22,511 nucleotides of DNA, from the IMG/VR virus record IMGVR_UViG_3300025168_000735, positions 1 to 22,511 of that record, one strand, 5' to 3'. Below, piece after piece: positions 1 through 13,819 of this stretch; positions within the stretch are counted from its first letter, which is position 1, and every line of letters begins with the position of its first letter. The translations under genes were made by a program, and so were the position numbers. The DNA comes from a virus. The notes beneath the pieces are model-generated. The model was not told where the DNA came from, ran no database searches, and saw only the letters and a program-made list of their open reading frames with translations.

Positions 1-3000
1 TTTTCTGTTTTTTCGTTAGTTATTTGCTTAGCTTCTGCGGTATCAAGGCTTTCTATATTGTATTTATTTGGGTCAAGCCCTGCTGCTGTGTATATTTCAG
101 CTTGTCTTTGTTTAAGACGTCCTAAAAACGTGCTAACTTCTCCTGAAGACTCTTTGTATTCATTAAAAAGAGAAATAGCACCTGTTCTTTTAGTATCACT
201 TTCTTCTCTATATCTACCTGGAAAAACTAAATTAGCTAAACCAGGTGTAGCCGCATCTTTAACGGCTTGAAGTAATGCGTCGGCGTCAACCCCACTGTCT
301 TTAGTTACGTCTGGATTAAACTTTAATAAATCTAATATTAAACCAGAATTTTCATCAACTAAATTTTGGCCAGCTATAATATCTCCGTCTTTAGCTTTTT
401 GTACTAACTCCTTATTTCTAGAGGCTTGCTCCAGAGATTCTACCGCTCTTTTACTAGCTTTAGCTGAACTTTCTGAGTTTTTATTTTTAGTTTGTTTGCT
501 TAGCTCTAAATCTATATCACTAACAAGATTTTTTTCTGCTGAAATAATTAACTCAGTTCCTACTTCTAGGTCTTGACCTCCTGTCTTATTTAACTGCTTA
601 AGCTGCTTTAGCGTTATGTCTGGGAATTTTTCGGCTACATCTTCTATAGTTTCTCCTTCTTGAACTATGTAGGTATTATTGACTTCTAAATCATCATCAA
701 CAAGAGCTCCTTTAGCTCCTTCTAATCTTACTTTGTTTTCAGCTGCTGACCAGCCTTTACCAGCGTCAGTAGAATTATTGTAAGCTACTATAAAATCAAA
801 AACATCTTTCCCAGTGTTAAATCTTAAATTTAAAGGTTGTTTGTTTGTTGGGTTTTTTAAGAAGTTTGATATTTTTGTACCTATGTTTTTATACCAAACC
901 TCTTGCTTTGGGTTATATTGGATATCGCCGCTAGAAAGATATTCACTCATTAAAGGTATAACTTCAGACCAAGTATTTTCTGCTGAATAATTGTCATCGT
1001 TAACGTATGACTGGAATTTGCTTAAAAACTTAGCTCCTCCGCTTATTTCTTTGTTATTAAGAAACTCTAGCATTAAAGATTTACCAAACTTAATAGCAAG
1101 TTCTGGATTTCCTTTAAGAGCTTGTTCCCAAAAAGGATGCAATGTTTCATGCTTGCCAGTAGTATAAACGTTATCTTCTGCAGATACTTGATCGTTTATT
1201 AATATAACTTTTTTCGTTACGCCATTTTCTTCAAATTCTAAAGATTGACCATAACCCACGTCTTCAATAACCTTTCCTCCTTTAGCTATAATTTCTGCTT
1301 TTTTAGCGTCTATTTCTTCTTGACTACCAAAAGGAAGAAACTCAACATCCATATCAGCAGCTTTAGCTTTTGATCCTTTTCTAGAAATAGATTTTTCAAG
1401 CTCTGGTTTTACTATTTCGGCCAAAGCCTCTCTTTTGTTTTCTATTTTTATATCAATATTTTCATGGAAAGCTTTATCCATAGTTTTTTTCCTATTTTGA
1501 AGATCTGCAATATCTTGCAAAATCATAGAGGACTTTAAAAGAGATTCCGGGGAAACAAAATTTGGTATGTTTGGTGATTGATTAATTATAGCTCTAACTT
1601 GTGCCATAATTTCAGAAGATTGTTGCTGAGTAATTTCACCGTTTTTAACTAAATTGTCTAAAGACTTTTTAGTATCAGCAGGGTTTTGACCCATCATAAA
1701 TAAACTAGAATTTAGCTGGCTATAATTATTAGTGCTACCTGGCATTTTAATATTTGTAGCAGCACCAGAAACTGCCATAGAAATAGTTACTGTTGTGGCT
1801 AAATCACTAGTTGTAAATTCTGCATCTAAAACATCTACGCCAAGCTGTTGGTTTATGTTTTCATTTATTACTAAGCTTGTAACAGCTTCTTGCCCTGTTT
1901 CTTCAACAATTTCACCTCCTGCTGCTTTTACAGTATTAAAAGTTCCTGCTTTTGTAGGTAAGTAACTTTTAAATATTTCTCCCCAAGATTTTTTATTCCC
2001 TGGTTTAGTAAACTGCGTTACGGCGTTTTTAACTGTTTGTTTAAAATTAACTGTTTTTTGAAAAGCATTAAAATATTTTTCAGTTGGACTAAATATGCCA
2101 GCGGCTCCATATAATATACTTGTTTGAGCTGCAGCTTGATCAGATAATTCACCAGCTTCTTTTTCGCTACGACCAGCCGCTATTAGTTGTTGATAAGTAT
2201 CTAATTTACCTTGAGCATAGCCTAGTCCACTCCAATACAACATACCGTCTAACCTTGCTTGCGGTAGTTTTACTATGTTTCTAATTCCTACTTTTCTTAA
2301 AAGCCCGGTAGCTCTACCTATTCCTTTTGTTCCAAAAATATCAACAGCTAGCCCGGTTAAAGCACCGGCAGCAGTAGTTGTAGAAGCGGATCCGCTAAAA
2401 GAAGTAGTTGTTTTGTTACTTCCTTTTACAATGTCCATCACTTTATCTTCGGTTCCAGGAACTAAAATATCTTGGTCTAAAGCGGGTGTATTAGTTTCTG
2501 CTTCGTATAAAACGCCGTCTTCTAAAACATACTCTGTTCCTGCTATTGTGGATGTTTTTCCGCTTACAAAGGGTTTTTTTACCATTCCTAGTTCTTGAGC
2601 GTCACCTTCAGCTTCTTGAATCATGGAAAAACGTGTATCAAAGTTAAGAATATCTGATAAAATTAAATGACCGAATTGCTGAGCTCTAGATAATACATTA
2701 TCTTCCATGCTTATCATTGTTTCGTATAAAAATCCGTTCCAACCTCCTTTTTTTTGTACTTCTGCTATTCTTTCAGTTCTAGCAGCTTCTGTTTTATCAT
2801 TTACAGCTTTTAATTGTGGAAAAAAATTATCTAAGTAAACTCCAATTTTTTCATAATCTAATGAATCAAAGCTAGTAAACCCTTCTTCATTCCAACTTAA
2901 TTCTGAAATTAAAGATCTAGCTTTGGCTCTTTTAACAACTATGTTTGTGATTCCTTTAAATTTATCAGGGTTTAAAGAAGCGTAACCATCTAAAATCTTA

Positions 3001-4298
3001 TTATCTTCCATTTGTTTATTTTCAAGTAAAAAATTACTTAAATATGTAGATAATCTTCTTTGTCTAGCGACTTCTGCTTTTTGCAAAGTTTGAAAATTAA
3101 ATCCAGCACCACCTCCTGACAAATTATCATAAGCCTCGCTGGCTTTATCATAAATATTTTGGTGTTTGCCTAGAGCAACTCCATGAACTCCAAAGTTACC
3201 CGCTAGTACATTATTAAGAAGGTCTTTAGATAAATCGTTTTTATTTAAGTAACCAATAAACTTTTTAGTTAATTCAGGCCCTAATGCTTCAGCTAAAAAA
3301 GAATCTTTGTCTACTAATCCAAAAGAATCTTTTATGTAATACTGTTCTTGCATTACTTGATCTGATTGGTTACTTTCTTTGTCATAATTAAAATCAGAAT
3401 AATATCCTGGGGTATATTGCTCTTGCTGCATTCCCATGGAGTTTTTTTCAAGTCGTTCCTTTAAATTTTTATTTCTATTATAAAAACCACCGCTATTATC
3501 GTTTTTTAAAACCTCAAATTTACTTTTTGGATTGATATCAACATTTTTATTTTTTTCTTTCCAATAATTATCTATTTTTTCTTGAAACTCGTTGTATTCT
3601 TCACGTTGTTTGTTTAGTTCTCGTATTTTTTCATTTTGCTTTTGAATTTTATAAGCATTTTTTCCAGCTTCTTCTGACATAAAACCTAATTCAGATAAAA
3701 TACCAACCATTTGATTTTGTAATACATCACTTTTTGGTTTATTTTTTATTCTTTCAGATTGATTTATCCAATCAGTATCATTAGGACCTTTAAAGAAAAA
3801 TTCTCTTGTTTTTTCTTTTTTGTCATTTTCAACTATTTCATATTTGTATTCGTAGTTGCCTTTCCCTTTTTTAATTTCACCAGGAATAAAATCTACATCA
3901 CCATACAATTCTTTTTTACTAGCTTTAAGATCCCTTGTCATTTCATTTAAAGGTTTTACTGAAAGATCTATGTCAAGTTTTCCAATAACCCCGGGTTCTT
4001 TAGGTGGGCTTATTATATCTTTTTGCCAACCAAAAAGAATGCTATTATCAGGTTTGTTTAATGATATATTCAATGCTAAATCCCCAGAACTTAAACTTTC
4101 GGACACGCCATCTGTTGTCCCTGTTGCAGGTGCATCCGTCTCCACAGCAGGGTTTATCTTTACTTCTTCCTCAACTACTGCTTGTTGAACAGTTTCTTGA
4201 GCAGGCTCATTTTTTTTCTTCCAAGATTTAGTTAGAGCAATTTTTTCAGCTACAGATATATCTGAGCTTAAAGTTTGTACGTATTCTAATAATGTCAT
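1..4298 (-). CDS. Giant virion protein with HExxH metallopeptidase motif and LysM domain (C-terminus beyond window)
   Basis: An open frame runs from an ATG at 4298 to the left edge (1432 codons) with no stop seen, so the C-terminus is missing. Residues 1-80 are acidic and probably disordered; about 190-270 are charged and helical. Around 640-740 are Gly/Ala-rich stretches (such as AAGALTGLAVDIFG) that could touch membranes. HETLH at 1050-1054 (nt 1137-1151) matches the HExxH zinc-peptidase signature, and SEVIPLMSEYL further on could supply a third acidic ligand. Residues 1210-1253 (nt 540-671), beginning YIVQEGETIEDVAEKFPDI, form a recognisable LysM peptidoglycan-binding domain. Residues from 1297 (ELVQKAKDGD...) are helical and faintly resemble sigma-70 region 2. 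Position after the ejection-protein-like gene and the great length suggest an internal protein injected with the DNA. The peptidase role is inferred from the motif. The start lies 5 bases after the previous stop. Confidence 0.88.
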   Translation of the reverse strand, partial: MTLLEYVQTLSSDISVAEKIALTKSWKKKNEPAQETVQQAVVEEEVKINPAVETDAPATGTTDGVSESLSSGDLALNISLNKPDNSILFGWQKDIISPPKEPGVIGKLDIDLSVKPLNEMTRDLKASKKELYGDVDFIPGEIKKGKGNYEYKYEIVENDKKEKTREFFFKGPNDTDWINQSERIKNKPKSDVLQNQMVGILSELGFMSEEAGKNAYKIQKQNEKIRELNKQREEYNEFQEKIDNYWKEKNKNVDINPKSKFEVLKNDNSGGFYNRNKNLKERLEKNSMGMQQEQYTPGYYSDFNYDKESNQSDQVMQEQYYIKDSFGLVDKDSFLAEALGPELTKKFIGYLNKNDLSKDLLNNVLAGNFGVHGVALGKHQNIYDKASEAYDNLSGGGAGFNFQTLQKAEVARQRRLSTYLSNFLLENKQMEDNKILDGYASLNPDKFKGITNIVVKRAKARSLISELSWNEEGFTSFDSLDYEKIGVYLDNFFPQLKAVNDKTEAARTERIAEVQKKGGWNGFLYETMISMEDNVLSRAQQFGHLILSDILNFDTRFSMIQEAEGDAQELGMVKKPFVSGKTSTIAGTEYVLEDGVLYEAETNTPALDQDILVPGTEDKVMDIVKGSNKTTTSFSGSASTTTAAGALTGLAVDIFGTKGIGRATGLLRKVGIRNIVKLPQARLDGMLYWSGLGYAQGKLDTYQQLIAAGRSEKEAGELSDQAAAQTSILYGAAGIFSPTEKYFNAFQKTVNFKQTVKNAVTQFTKPGNKKSWGEIFKSYLPTKAGTFNTVKAAGGEIVEETGQEAVTSLVINENINQQLGVDVLDAEFTTSDLATTVTISMAVSGAATNIKMPGSTNNYSQLNSSLFMMGQNPADTKKSLDNLVKNGEITQQQSSEIMAQVRAIINQSPNIPNFVSPESLLKSSMILQDIADLQNRKKTMDKAFHENIDIKIENKREALAEIVKPELEKSISRKGSKAKAADMDVEFLPFGSQEEIDAKKAEIIAKGGKVIEDVGYGQSLEFEENGVTKKVILINDQVSAEDNVYTTGKHETLHPFWEQALKGNPELAIKFGKSLMLEFLNNKEISGGAKFLSKFQSYVNDDNYSAENTWSEVIPLMSEYLSSGDIQYNPKQEVWYKNIGTKISNFLKNPTNKQPLNLRFNTGKDVFDFIVAYNNSTDAGKGWSAAENKVRLEGAKGALVDDDLEVNNTYIVQEGETIEDVAEKFPDITLKQLKQLNKTGGQDLEVGTELIISAEKNLVSDIDLELSKQTKNKNSESSAKASKRAVESLEQASRNKELVQKAKDGDIIAGQNLVDENSGLILDLLKFNPDVTKDSGVDADALLQAVKDAATPGLANLVFPGRYREESDTKRTGAISLFNEYKESSGEVSTFLGRLKQRQAEIYTAAGLDPNKYNIESLDTAEAKQITNEKTE

Positions 4299-7495: not shown

Positions 7496-10400
7496 TTAAA
7501 CGCAAGGCCCTACGTTTGGATTAGGGTTTTGTTGGTCTAAAGTCGTTAAACTTGGTGATTCTGGAATATTTGTAGGTGTAGCATCTGGAAGGGTGTGAGA
7601 ATAAAAAGGAAGTTTTGGGGTTGAGGCTGAACCAAATTGAAAACAATTATTGTTTGCTGGAATTCCGTCCCAGCCTGGTAAATCAGGAGAGTTTGCTCCT
7701 GCTGGTACACCGGCCGTGCCAAAAGTAGCGCCTCCGGTTATTGTGTGAGACCAAAACAATTGCACTTCAGCTCCAAAAACAGGAGCGAATCCTGGGGGAG
7801 AAGATGATGCTCCATTAGTAAGACTTCTAGCCCCTATGGCTGCGTTTGAGTTTTCATTACCAAGAATTTGCACAGCAAAATTAACAACCGCGCATTTTGT
7901 AAAATCATATACTTGAGCACCCGCGGAACATGCAGTTCCATCGTTTTTTTGGCCTGGTCTAACACCGGAATTAATAAGAGTATTATCAGTTGTAAAAGGA
8001 TCAAGGATAAATAAACTTCTTGTATGGGAGTCTCTATTTGGGTTAATGGTTGGCCCTTGATTTAAAGAACTAGTTTGAATAAAAGACTGATTAGTAATTG
8101 ACCCTTGATTTGTTAATTTTGATCCGTCAACAAATCGTCCTACACTATAATCTGTTCCAGCGGATTGCTGGGGACCGTTTACATTGTCAATTTCACCAAA
8201 CAAAACCTTCACGGAAGTTTGCGGGTTACCCCTATACTGTATTGGAATAGACAAATAAGCCCATATATAAACAATATTAGGTGTCCAATTTTGAATTTGT
8301 CCTATAAATCTAGGATAAGGAAAAGTCCCGGGAGTTGCGAAAAAGCTTCCCATTGCATTTGTCATAGATGTGTTTGATGGGCCACTTACAGGTAATGCTA
8401 CAAAACCTGTGCCTGTAGTATACGGGGCAAATACAACTTGTGTAGAAAGAAAAATATCTGCATCAACACCGTAATCAAACACAAGAGGAGTGCTCAAGCT
8501 TGCACCTAAATTATCTGTTAACTGCATAGTTACTTGATAAAAGTAACCTGTAGTATTCCCGTTATTATTTACTGATTTTAATTCAAATCCTAAAGAATTA
8601 CCTTGAAGCCCTTGGCTAGTCAGATCTAAAATAGTGTTTGTAGCTGCGTTTCCACTGCCTGGTGTGTTATCATATTGAATTATAGCTCCAGTATTTGTCG
8701 TAACTCTAATCGATACTACAGACCATCCAAATCCACCGCCAGTGTTAAAATTTCGTTGAAGAACACCGTTATCAATTGCGCCATTAAACCCACTAGGAGA
8801 AGTGGCGATTGTATAAATACTTGCATTAGTAGGAGTGGCTTGAACATTTAATGTGGTGGTAGAAGCAACAAAATAAGGATCTGAATTTGTTAACTGTAAT
8901 TCTATAGTTTGATCTGTTTGAGTTCCATCAGCTTGCGTAAATCTTACCGTTGCTATATATTTGCCGGCATAAGAAACTGAAAATGATTCTTCAACACCTG
9001 GCGCATCAGATCCCGCATAAAAGAATCCTAGTGTTTTTATAAAAAAGCTACCTGTTTGAGTTCCAGCTTCTAATTCAAATTGCGTGGTAGAACCAGTAGC
9101 GTAATTAATAGAATTTAAGTTTGTTGATTGAAAAGCAAAATTGAATACTGATACTAATGTAGCAGTAGTTGTGTTGTCAATTTGACCTTCTATTAACGGA
9201 AAGAAGTCAGGAGTAATTGTTGACCCGCTAGGAGTGTTTTCAGGAAAACTTGCTTGTGTAACTGATATTCCGCTTATACCAGTTCCTGTATTTAATATAT
9301 CGTAATTTAAATCAGATATTAAACCGGTTGTGGTTGCCTCGTAAAACAGCTCTAATTGAGAAATAAAAGGTGAGGTTTCATACACAGCTAGCCCCATGTT
9401 ATCCGCGTATGGATAATCGGCGGGAGGAAATAAATACAAACTTTCTGCAATACCTATCGATTTTTGTGTAGATATTTTAGCTACAAATGGTTTTGTATCA
9501 AAATCATAAATAGCATTTCTGTTTATGTTTACAGGTACAAGTTCATAATCTGCAGCTGACCCAGCCGCTGATGTATCTGTTAACACTGGAGGAAAAACAT
9601 CTTCAATAGTTCCAACTAAGTCAACGCTATCTGCAGATGATAAAGGATCAAATTGAGTTGTACGATATGAATTTGTTCCAATGGTCGCTTTAGTTGTATT
9701 AGTTACTCGTCCAAATAGTCTTATACTACTAGTAAATTGGTTTTGCAGCGGGCCTACTTCTGTCAAATTTCTAGGTATTTTATTTATGTTATCAGCAACA
9801 AGTGTTGTAAAAGCTGTCTCGCCTTGTTCTAAAGTAGAAGAAAGTATAGGATATCCATTTACAATGCCTGGAAGGTATACGTTATAATAATCTTGTTGCT
9901 GTTGTTTAACACCTACTTTGTAGCTATAAAACCCATCTACGTTTATAGTGTAAGTTGCGTATGTTCTAGGAAGCTCGTTTTGAGTTAAAGGGGTTTCTGG
10001 CCTACCTGTAGCAGTATTGTCAAATAAATATTTAGAAGCAACCTCTCCGTCTGTAAGTAATACAACAGACGTAACAGGAGATCCTACACTTGTAACAGAC
10101 TCTATTTCTACATAGTCCGTAAAAAGCCCAGCAAATGTTTTACCTAATTGAAAAAAGTTTTGATATGTAGTTGCAAAATTTGGAAACAAAGGATCTGCTG
10201 AAGTTGTAGAGCCTGTTTGATATTTATAATAATTTTGTGATGTAAAAAGTATTTGAAATTTAATAACAGTTCCTAAATCTGCACCGCCAGCAACCAACTT
10301 AACTTCAGGAGAACCTGCATTGTCAAGCAAAGTGTAATCCGTAGTTTCAGCTAATCTAATAAATCCATTGCCTGTATTTTTATACACAGTATAAGTATTG

Positions 10401-12571
10401 GCTCCACCTAAATCACTATACAGCAACCCTTGAAAAATAAAAATTGCTTGTGCAGCCGTAGCTGTTATAGATTGTGTAGATAAATCTCTAAAAAATATAG
10501 CTGGAATTGTGCCTGGAGGATTACCTGGCGGCTTTGGAATAGTATAATAATTACCTACGGCATACGCGCCTGGATAACCACTAACGTTATTGGCAAGCGG
10601 AGCTTCAGGTATAACATTATTAAACTCTAAAGATAAAGTATCTCCTGTCCACCCTTGAACATCAGAATTAAATCCAACCCCATTGTAATCGCTAAAAACA
10701 TTAGATCCCGGTTGAGGATTTCCTGATGAATCTAATAAGTTATCATAATTAGATAATATTATATCTGTTTGACGTCCAAACTTGTCAGCTAATACTATGC
10801 CTGCTTGATAATTTCTATTTTGCTTTAATGAATGCTGCGGGTACTCTGTAAAAGTTTGTTGAGTTTTATCTACAATTTCTGCATAATAATCTAAGCCTCT
10901 TTGTCCGCTTTTGCCTTCAATAAAATTACCGTACATGATTCTATTACCAGCCGTTTCTTGAGCTATAGCTCTTACGGGAACTTTATCAAAAACTCTAGTT
11001 GATTCAGAAGAAGGTAATGTTTTTACAGGTAAAGTAGATTGATAATCATATTGATATATGTTAGTGTTATTAAGATTATTTATAAAATCTTGATCTACAT
11101 TTATTGATTCTAAAACTTGATAAGCTAATTTATCAGATTCTTTAAAAATTATATCTATGCCTTTTACCTTATAGTCTGCTAGTATATCTAAACTAGGTAG
11201 TTCAATATTTAATATTGCGTTGTTAACAGAGTTTTGCATAAATTCAACTACAGTAGTTACGAATGCTTGTGTTTCATTATCATTTACAAACTGTCCTTCC
11301 TGTTCCGGTATAAATACATCTTGACTAAAAGGAGCAACAATAGAATACTCGTTATCATCAAATTTAAATCTATAACTAAATTTTACAAATTTATCTCTTA
11401 AATAATCAGGATCTCCATTCCATCCGTTATAATTAACATTTTTTATTAATCTAACAGAATAGCCATTTATATTTTTGTTTCCAATACCCGTGCTGCTGTC
11501 AATAGTAACTGCTTGGTCAGTGCTTTCCATTTTTACATAAGTACCCGTAAGATCGCCTACTGCGCCGTCTCTTGTCCAAAATCTAGCTGAATCTAATAAT
11601 CCTGCAAAGTTAGATGTGTCACTTATGTAGCCAGCAGGCAAAGCGTCAAAACCAGTAGTGTTGGTTCCAGGATTAGCTGACCAAAAATCTGTAGATTTTA
11701 ATGGTATTGCTGGGCTAGTGCCACCGCTTATTTGTAACCACTGGGCTGAAGTCATAACAGTAAAACCTACAGGAGCTAATTCTCGAACATCTTTTACGGC
11801 ATGACGATTGTATAATTTTCCATAAGTAACACCGTTGCCTAAAGAATAATCATAGTAACACCAGCAACCAGTACCAGCTGCGTCGTTAGCAATCCATTGT
11901 TGTTGCGTAATAGCTTGATTAATTTCATCTCCGTTTCTATAAACCGAAGTATCTAAATTAATTGAAGTTAAAGTTAAAGGTCCAATTTCTGTTTGCAAAG
12001 GATCGCTTGCATCAGACATGGTAGAAGGTTTTATACCTGTATTTGTAGATCTTAAATTTATAAAATCCGGAGCCTTGTAGGGCGCGAATTTAGCAACAGA
12101 TATTTGATCTTCTGTTTTATAATATTGATTATCACTTAAAGCTGTTGAAACATTTATTTTTCTAGGTTGATTTCTATTGTCGCTAAAAAAAAGTAAATCT
12201 TCTATTAAGCTAATAGAATTAATTCTACTATTGGTAGAAAAATTTAAAAAGTTTCCACTAACAAGTAAAGTAGAAGTTGTGCTGCCGGCATTATATTGAA
12301 GTATTTTTCCAAGACCAGTGTTATCTGTTGTAAAATAATAAGCTAAGTTATTAGTGTGATCTACATAAACACCCACTACTTCCTCGGTGCTATTAGATTC
12401 ACTAATCCTTAATTGATTACCTAATATAGCTTCTAATGCTCCAACATCACTATTCTCTGATCTAGAGACTGCTACATTTAAAGCGTCTCTGTATTCGTTG
12501 TTTGGAATAAGTCTATCGTCTAAATCTTTATTCATTTTAGACTTGATAAAACTGTTTTTAGCTTCTGCCAT
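7496..12571 (-). CDS. Tail nozzle / stabilization protein with inserted FISUMP domain and Ig-like C-terminal half
   Basis: 1691 residues, the largest complete gene here. The N-terminus (NSFIKSKMNKDLDDRLIPNN EYRDALNVAVSRSE, about 6-39, written here in two parts) resembles the start of P22 gp10-like/crAss muzzle proteins. Residues 60-145 show propeller-type strands (VVGVYVDHTNNLAYYFTT; ISLIEDLLFFSDNRNQPRKI). Residues about 203-379 are a FISUMP domain listed separately; the nozzle core resumes at DKFVKFSYRFKFDDNEYSIV (394-413). Residues 700-780 carry a small beta module also seen in the neighbouring connector proteins. From about 1090 to 1400 the chain is Thr/Ser/Asn-rich with Ig- or cadherin-like strands. 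The start follows the preceding stop by 6 bases, so it is co-transcribed with the two connector genes. Probable role: gating the tail channel and contacting the cell surface. Confidence 0.85.
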   Translation of the reverse strand: MAEAKNSFIKSKMNKDLDDRLIPNNEYRDALNVAVSRSENSDVGALEAILGNQLRISESNSTEEVVGVYVDHTNNLAYYFTTDNTGLGKILQYNAGSTTSTLLVSGNFLNFSTNSRINSISLIEDLLFFSDNRNQPRKINVSTALSDNQYYKTEDQISVAKFAPYKAPDFINLRSTNTGIKPSTMSDASDPLQTEIGPLTLTSINLDTSVYRNGDEINQAITQQQWIANDAAGTGCWCYYDYSLGNGVTYGKLYNRHAVKDVRELAPVGFTVMTSAQWLQISGGTSPAIPLKSTDFWSANPGTNTTGFDALPAGYISDTSNFAGLLDSARFWTRDGAVGDLTGTYVKMESTDQAVTIDSSTGIGNKNINGYSVRLIKNVNYNGWNGDPDYLRDKFVKFSYRFKFDDNEYSIVAPFSQDVFIPEQEGQFVNDNETQAFVTTVVEFMQNSVNNAILNIELPSLDILADYKVKGIDIIFKESDKLAYQVLESINVDQDFINNLNNTNIYQYDYQSTLPVKTLPSSESTRVFDKVPVRAIAQETAGNRIMYGNFIEGKSGQRGLDYYAEIVDKTQQTFTEYPQHSLKQNRNYQAGIVLADKFGRQTDIILSNYDNLLDSSGNPQPGSNVFSDYNGVGFNSDVQGWTGDTLSLEFNNVIPEAPLANNVSGYPGAYAVGNYYTIPKPPGNPPGTIPAIFFRDLSTQSITATAAQAIFIFQGLLYSDLGGANTYTVYKNTGNGFIRLAETTDYTLLDNAGSPEVKLVAGGADLGTVIKFQILFTSQNYYKYQTGSTTSADPLFPNFATTYQNFFQLGKTFAGLFTDYVEIESVTSVGSPVTSVVLLTDGEVASKYLFDNTATGRPETPLTQNELPRTYATYTINVDGFYSYKVGVKQQQQDYYNVYLPGIVNGYPILSSTLEQGETAFTTLVADNINKIPRNLTEVGPLQNQFTSSIRLFGRVTNTTKATIGTNSYRTTQFDPLSSADSVDLVGTIEDVFPPVLTDTSAAGSAADYELVPVNINRNAIYDFDTKPFVAKISTQKSIGIAESLYLFPPADYPYADNMGLAVYETSPFISQLELFYEATTTGLISDLNYDILNTGTGISGISVTQASFPENTPSGSTITPDFFPLIEGQIDNTTTATLVSVFNFAFQSTNLNSINYATGSTTQFELEAGTQTGSFFIKTLGFFYAGSDAPGVEESFSVSYAGKYIATVRFTQADGTQTDQTIELQLTNSDPYFVASTTTLNVQATPTNASIYTIATSPSGFNGAIDNGVLQRNFNTGGGFGWSVVSIRVTTNTGAIIQYDNTPGSGNAATNTILDLTSQGLQGNSLGFELKSVNNNGNTTGYFYQVTMQLTDNLGASLSTPLVFDYGVDADIFLSTQVVFAPYTTGTGFVALPVSGPSNTSMTNAMGSFFATPGTFPYPRFIGQIQNWTPNIVYIWAYLSIPIQYRGNPQTSVKVLFGEIDNVNGPQQSAGTDYSVGRFVDGSKLTNQGSITNQSFIQTSSLNQGPTINPNRDSHTRSLFILDPFTTDNTLINSGVRPGQKNDGTACSAGAQVYDFTKCAVVNFAVQILGNENSNAAIGARSLTNGASSSPPGFAPVFGAEVQLFWSHTITGGATFGTAGVPAGANSPDLPGWDGIPANNNCFQFGSASTPKLPFYSHTLPDATPTNIPESPSLTTLDQQNPNPNVGPCV
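11435..11965 (-). other. FISUMP (Fib_succ_major, PF09603-type) C-type-lectin-like domain inside the nozzle protein
   Basis: Residues about 203-379 of the 1691-aa protein match the FISUMP pattern in order: INLDTSVYRNGDEI, QQWIANDAAGTGCWCYYDY, YGKLYNRHAVKDVRELAP, VGFTVMTSAQW, LKSTDFW, TNTTGFDALPAGYI, ARFWTRD and the closing NGYSVRLIKN. The usual landmarks NLD..YRNGD, W/CYY, YGKLYN, LAP.G, T..W, GF.ALP.GY and SVR are all recognisable. In known proteins FISUMP domains are found mainly in secreted Bacteroidota/Fibrobacter proteins and share a C-type-lectin/FGE-like fold. Here the domain interrupts the nozzle core, whose strands continue at YLRDKFVKFSYRFKFDDNEY. I infer a surface-exposed binding role. 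Confidence 0.85.
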
Positions 12572-12577
12572 TTAATT

Positions 12578-13819
12578 TTAGTGTTTAATCCATTTAGATT
12601 TACCTCTCATAACTTGAACTATTTCATCAAGTTTAATATTTGATAATCTTATTTTAGCATTTCTAAGTTTAGCTCTTCTATCTTTTTGAAGTCTTTGTAC
12701 TAAATATTCTTGCTGACCAGATCTTGTTGAAATAATTGCATGAAGTATGCTTGCATATAAAGCGTCTTCAGCCATTTTAGGAATTCTTGTGTCTAAATCA
12801 TAAGCAAGTCCGTCTGATATGTATTCTAATACAATAAGTCTATTAACTAAATTGCTAGAAAAAGACATTTTGCCTTCTCTTTCGTTCATATTAAACCAGC
12901 CGTTTACTTGTGATATTTGTGGTTCAAGTCCGTATTGTCTACCCCAATTCCAAGATCCATCAAAGCCATAAGCGTTTCTAAATTCTTCTAGCTTATCAAT
13001 GCTATCAAAATTGTTGCCATTAATCAAATTATCATTTGCATTTTTCCATCTTTCTTCAGTGATAGAAGTTCCTTCTAAGTTATCTCCAAAATTATCATTT
13101 GTAGGAACACCGGCTTGATCTTGTATAGGCGTTTCATAAGGGCTTATAGTTAAATTGTTTGCAGGATATATAATTCTTTTTACGCCTAGGTTATCTATAT
13201 AAGAAACCCTAACGTAATTTACGTAGTCCTGCGGTAATATAACGCTTAAGCTAGCAGGTATATTTAATTCTTGCGAATGAACACTTTTTAGTGTATCGTA
13301 AGAAAACTCCTGTAAACTACGCTTAGCGTGGAATATAATGTCTGTTCTTTTTACATTGGGAATTAGCTTGTCAGCTCCAACGTATGCTACCAAGAAATTG
13401 TTTATAGCATCGTTTAATGTTAAATAGCTGTAGCCGCCATAGTTATCTTCTACGGCTTGGCCGTATGCTTTTTCCGATTCAGTTTGACCGTATTTACCTC
13501 CCGTTAATATTTTTAATTGAACAACAACATAAGTATTAATAGGTAGGCCTGTTAATGTTATAACATTGCCGTTAACCGTAAAAGCAGTAAGATATTCATT
13601 CCAGCTTTCTGGATTTGGCAATCCTGTTGCACTTGTATATACTTTAAAATTATTTAAAGCATAATTAGCGACTGATGGGTTCCAGTTTGCAAATATTAAA
13701 TCTGTATTAAACGTAGTTGTAAATTCCTGAGAAGCGGTCCCGTCGGACAAAAACTCTTGCGCTCCTTCGTAATATTGCTGATTTGTTTCGGTTATTAAAC
13801 CTCCATTAGGAATTGGCAT
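12578..13819 (-). CDS. Head-to-tail connector / ring protein 1 (adaptor)
   Basis: 413 residues. The core begins near residue 130: SYLTLNDAINNFLVAYVGAD and DIIFHAKRSLQEFSYDTLKS are helical blocks I recognise from connector/ring proteins of crAss-like and related Bacteroidota podophages. They are followed by a beta section, ILPQDYVNYVRVSYIDNLG. The C-terminal helices (MAEDALYASILHAIISTR, then basic LRNAKIRLSNIKLDEIVQVM) are also characteristic, the latter probably facing the portal or DNA. Residues 1-125 form an extra beta-rich module (for example AFTVNGNVITLTGL and VVVQLKIL) that is not part of the helical core. It sits 6 bases after the stop of the other connector gene and 6 bases before the nozzle gene, a tight translational unit. 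Role: joins the portal to the tail. Assignment rests on remembered family motifs. Confidence 0.78.
   Translation of the reverse strand: MPIPNGGLITETNQQYYEGAQEFLSDGTASQEFTTTFNTDLIFANWNPSVANYALNNFKVYTSATGLPNPESWNEYLTAFTVNGNVITLTGLPINTYVVVQLKILTGGKYGQTESEKAYGQAVEDNYGGYSYLTLNDAINNFLVAYVGADKLIPNVKRTDIIFHAKRSLQEFSYDTLKSVHSQELNIPASLSVILPQDYVNYVRVSYIDNLGVKRIIYPANNLTISPYETPIQDQAGVPTNDNFGDNLEGTSITEERWKNANDNLINGNNFDSIDKLEEFRNAYGFDGSWNWGRQYGLEPQISQVNGWFNMNEREGKMSFSSNLVNRLIVLEYISDGLAYDLDTRIPKMAEDALYASILHAIISTRSGQQEYLVQRLQKDRRAKLRNAKIRLSNIKLDEIVQVMRGKSKWIKH

Follow-up and report, generated by a model that had tools for sequence, protein, structure and literature searches.

In phage crAss001 the muzzle is made by gp44, one polypeptide of 1371 amino acids (aa) devoid of FISUMP domains. 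Its ring-joining domain and its propeller are similar to the T7 nozzle. After residue 163 comes the first immunoglobulin (Ig)-like domain (IG1), which separates propeller blades 2 and 3; muzzles differ in length through insertions in the crass and IG2 domains, and the muzzle tip probably contacts the cell (PMC10172136). The locus described here resides in a 22.5-kb virus-record fragment (IMG/VR record IMGVR_UViG_3300025168_000735), the whole of which is referred to as the window. The muzzle is split there into two open reading frames (ORFs) of 1691 and 429 aa, and the former carries a FISUMP (Fib_succ_major) domain near its N terminus. The closest annotated relatives, gp97 of Cellulophaga phage phi38:1 and the structural proteins of Flavobacterium elemo phages, share about 32% identity with the window protein over the N-terminal core and the same gene order after terminase and portal, but are single-ORF muzzles with no insert at the corresponding site, whereas the window has both the insert and the split. 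A search restricted to the open-access literature found no paper on FISUMP domains in phage muzzles.

Positional and evolutionary evidence leads us to infer that the domain binds a receptor; a host origin and outward display are also probable. We hold it probable, though well short of certain, that the ancestor of a clade of crAss-like phages acquired FISUMP a single time as a surface module, probably from a secreted Bacteroidota protein, and that the module sits after propeller blade 2 and ahead of the body of the muzzle's first Ig-like domain. A muzzle that is hexameric, as in crAss001, would display six copies, each most likely binding a glycan or protein on the surface of the Bacteroidota host cell, and binding would help the tail tip to dock ahead of muzzle opening. 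In crAss-like phages the fibres are usually credited with recognizing the receptor, the muzzle being regarded as a gate. A host-type, adhesin-like muzzle domain found clade-wide at a highly variable site is a testable candidate for the contact between tail tip and cell, and the muzzle setting could reveal the ligand of a poorly understood family.

FISUMP domain and insertion site

PF09603 matches the 1691-aa ORF with 62.8 bits (E 6.8e-17, cut-off 33.9) over positions 9-187 of the 187 in the profile, hence in full length, and the corresponding DNA with 67.2 bits. NCBIfam TIGR02145 scores 43.7 bits vs. a cut-off of 41.65. The landmarks W, GxLYN, AP.G, F, W and R are common to the window domain and 22 aligned bacterial copies, and all 34 sequences aligned over the segment match PF09603. 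With both models above their curated cut-offs and the landmarks in line, the FISUMP identity proposed in the original prediction is confirmed. The domain and its landmarks are those of the Bacteroidota FISUMP proteins; these, however, are mostly secreted or lipoprotein-like and often carry the domain at the C terminus, whereas the window copy is internal to a virion protein. In three loci (L017, L062 and L047) the domain is longer by a glycine-rich segment of about 60 residues in which GSGYT-type motifs occur, and similar motifs are also found in inserts of muzzles lacking FISUMP.

The AlphaFold model of residues 190-388 is compact (mean pLDDT 89.8, pTM 0.88), and the segment is confidently predicted to fold as a separate domain. 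Foldseek matched this model to other viral FISUMP models (TM 0.78, E 4.9e-16), and to no solved structure in PDB at E<=0.001. A C-type-lectin fold, also anticipated by the original prediction, is plausible on indirect grounds. With hhalign, a bacterial-led profile of the FISUMP family falls in register with Lcl_C/DUF1566 (probability 81%, E 1.2e-5 for one comparison), which is tied to the C-type lectin fold (PMC4159848); the corresponding probability is only 11% for the profile of the window clade itself, and 3% for FGE-sulfatase. The window protein, the FISUMP profiles and the N-terminal profile found no relative among the sequences of solved structures, the one weak match being a designed propeller. 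The model of residues 1-640 is poor overall (pTM 0.38) and was not used to place FISUMP on the muzzle; a fold search with it pointed only to beta-propellers.

Cellulophaga phage phi38:1, Flavobacterium elemo phages and a Manatee Spring phage have single muzzle proteins without the segment, to which residues 1-172 and about 387-620 can be aligned. The distance from SLAKAPPLYPPTMVLG to NNLLNRFLRFSYRYKYADGEVSAFSPF is about 17 residues in these phages vs. about 215 in the window. The idea that the domain interrupts a core continuing on both sides is thus borne out by the flanks, and relatives free of the insertion, by which it was to be checked, do exist. The linker KPSTMSDASDP, which precedes FISUMP, is conserved. 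Based on the crAss001 layout, and on a profile alignment that reaches residue 150, we infer that the insert follows blade 2 and precedes the body of IG1, or falls just within IG1, its exact strand being extrapolated. Muzzles without FISUMP at the site (72 relatives) hold dissimilar and varied sequence there, from 37 to about 490 residues long, and the site is, judged from these alignments, a hotspot. A Pfam scan of the insert-site sequences of seven such muzzles recognized no domain. The muzzle ORFs of L126 and L156 feature inserts of about 370 and 490 residues in the same loop, matching no Pfam family.

Inheritance, rate of change and role

A whole-protein pattern search identified 76 loci, a sample favoring carriers as some of the patterns derive from the FISUMP segment; a second search, seeded by the N-terminal core of a relative without FISUMP, identified 80. 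FISUMP is found somewhere in 77 of the 149 muzzles having both core parts, and is missing in 72. A tree of the core, computed after removal of the insert, unites 29 of 30 rows with FISUMP, all distinct muzzles and the window among them, in a single group (support 90, not starred) that contains no row lacking the domain. The exception, L152 (9989-14284), lies outside the clade and carries the domain near the C terminus (residues 1165-1381), which suggests that FISUMP was gained a second time elsewhere in the muzzle. FISUMP and core distances are correlated (Mantel r 0.838, with none of 999 permutations as high). Because the domain is at this site confined to a single clade and tracks the core phylogeny, the pattern fits one old gain in the clade ancestor followed by vertical descent. 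The objection that the segment might be integral to all homologous nozzle proteins holds within the clade, every sampled member of which has it, and fails outside, where it is absent at this site.

At all distances compared, FISUMP has diverged more rapidly than the sequences flanking it. The median ratio of nonsynonymous to synonymous change (dN/dS) is 0.45 vs. 0.15-0.27 in flanking regions (1088 non-independent pairs), a value dominated by distant pairs with synonymous sites near saturation; close pairs range from 0.04 to 0.27. Within the N-terminal region, conservation is highest in the Ig-like domain 1 region past the insert (dN/dS 0.15). Variation within FISUMP falls mostly in residues 270-300 and 334-366. 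These rates would fit relaxed constraint or mild diversification.

The presence of the domain in every sampled clade member, its vertical inheritance and the purifying selection seen in all close pairs would also suit a structural decoration, stabilizing the muzzle hexamer or its contacts with the ring barrel or fibres, with no ligand being bound. Yet FISUMP is the fastest-evolving part of the N-terminal region, relatives host very different sequences at the same site, which argues against a fixed structural contact, and members of the family reside mostly in secreted proteins; a purely structural role therefore looks unlikely to us, though not negligibly so. Several points weigh against a host-binding module aiding tail-tip docking. 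The alignment to crAss001 ends at residue 150, just short of IG1, and the position of the insert relative to the membrane is extrapolated from that phage. All close pairs have dN/dS well below 1, and diversifying selection is therefore unsupported. No proven ligand is known for the FISUMP family. More tentatively, at less than even confidence, the loop at the start of IG1 may be a general display site of crAss-like tails, filled by lineage-specific modules, FISUMP captured from Bacteroidota among them, which would recognize the host on the DNA-ejection gate and couple recognition with opening.

Origin of the domain and diversification

The profile of the clade, run against 84,980 bacterial and archaeal species, yielded 35 loci, mainly in Bacteroidota. 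In the larger of two FISUMP trees, both unrooted, the bacterial copy nearest to the muzzle group is, with moderate support, a signal-peptide protein from a Chitinophaga metagenome-assembled genome (MAG), on an apparently chromosomal contig; in the reduced tree the muzzle copies occupy one side of a branch and the bacterial copies the other (support 85, not decisive). Because of these trees, and of the signal peptide in the nearest bacterial relative, capture from a secreted protein of a Bacteroidota host is likely, and the host origin first suggested from the sequence is still the likeliest reading. Transfer from phages to bacteria, which unrooted trees would allow, is very improbable, the bacterial chromosomal matches being far more diverse and spread over several phyla, while the phage copies at this site form one shallow group. 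One of the 35 loci, L162, is a FISUMP-bearing muzzle contig binned with an uncultured Flavobacteriaceae MAG, weak evidence for the host group or a binning artefact. FISUMP was also found in non-muzzle proteins of seven viral contigs (L197, L223, L224, L228, L229, L262 and L265); viral use of the domain therefore extends beyond the muzzle.

Up to the start of FISUMP, L017 and L047 are nearly identical; across it and for part of IG1 they differ strongly. All substitution types are represented, as homologous recombination would leave by exchanging the tract. In the window, L002 and L003 about 2% of FISUMP residues differ, as in the flanks. C-type-lectin tail fibres diversified by diversity-generating retroelements (DGRs) in crAss-like and Bacteroides phages similarly place a lectin-like or Fib_succ_major binding module on the tail of a Bacteroidota phage, but as C-terminal fibre domains or separate target genes accompanied by a reverse transcriptase and a template repeat, whereas the window has an internal muzzle domain without DGR parts (PMC7290462, PMC12386605, PMC8143477). 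DGRs of gut bacteria and Bacteroides siphophages are known to target Fib_succ_major and DUF1566 domains (PMC4159848, PMC8143477), and crAss-like phages with DGRs targeting tail fibres exist (PMC7290462, PMC12386605). Diversification of FISUMP by a reverse transcriptase encoded elsewhere in the genome, as envisaged in the original prediction, is nonetheless scarcely credible and was rejected: RVT_1 is missing in 50 related records (at least six of 59-68 kb, related complete genomes measuring 60-72.5 kb), no second copy of FISUMP DNA that might serve as template repeat is found in the window or 28 related loci, the substitution pattern has no hypervariable or A-biased signal, the window, L002 and L003 differ in FISUMP no more than in the flanks, the divergent L017/L047 pair is recombination-like over a long tract including the flanking domain, and FISUMP lies in the first quarter of the muzzle protein.

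Muzzle organization and neighboring genes

The coordinates of the muzzle features are given in Table 1. Taken together, the 1691-aa and 429-aa ORFs are, by profile matches, a crAss-type muzzle: the N terminus of the former matches phrog_14478, and the latter PF25729 crAss_MUZ_C (33.8 bits vs. a Pfam cut-off of 27). Residues 1-150 of crAss001 gp44 align with the insert-poor family at an hhalign probability of 95%. The protein, initially called a phage tail nozzle protein, is thus better named a crAss-type muzzle.

Table 1. Features of the muzzle locus in the window
Feature	Position	Strand	Evidence
N-terminal muzzle protein, 1691 aa, bearing FISUMP	7496..12571	-	phrog_14478 (9.4e-53); tblastn to phi38:1, elemo and Manatee Spring structural proteins
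N-terminal core, residues 1-172 (ring-joining region and first propeller blades)	12056..12571	-	phrog_14478; hhalign; beta-propeller matches of the model
Whole inserted stretch vs. phi38:1-type muzzles, about residues 175-386 (linker KPSTMSDASDP, FISUMP, linker YNGWNGDP)	11414..12049	-	alignment with insert-free muzzles; gap lengths in 72 relatives
FISUMP (Fib_succ_major, PF09603) domain, residues 202-377	11441..11968	-	Pfam; NCBIfam TIGR02145; AlphaFold
Core continuation past the insert, about residues 380-500 (Ig-like domain 1 region, KFVKFSYRFKFDDNEYSIVAPFSQDVF)	11072..11434	-	conservation; aligned to phi38:1 RFLRFSYRYKYADGEVSAFSPF
C-terminal muzzle half, own ORF, 429 aa	6165..7454	-	PF25729 crAss_MUZ_C; phrog_14478 positions 941-1307; phi38:1 gp97 residues 877-1199
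Virion structural protein, 413 aa, just upstream of the muzzle gene	12578..13819	-	phrog_13977

The two muzzle ORFs are separated by 41 bases. The C-terminal half is a separate ORF in 103 of the 104 loci in which it was found, and fused in one (L141); phi38:1, elemo and crAss001 have the muzzle as one protein. Assembly of both parts, if it occurs, would complete the propeller in trans. On the reverse strand of the window, terminase and portal are followed by head and tail structural genes and then by the muzzle, an order suggesting that the 413-aa protein may be a ring protein. At the edge of the window, which cuts it, a 1432-aa protein (3-4298) features a LysM domain at residues 1210-1252, and is possibly a cell-wall protein carried by the virion.
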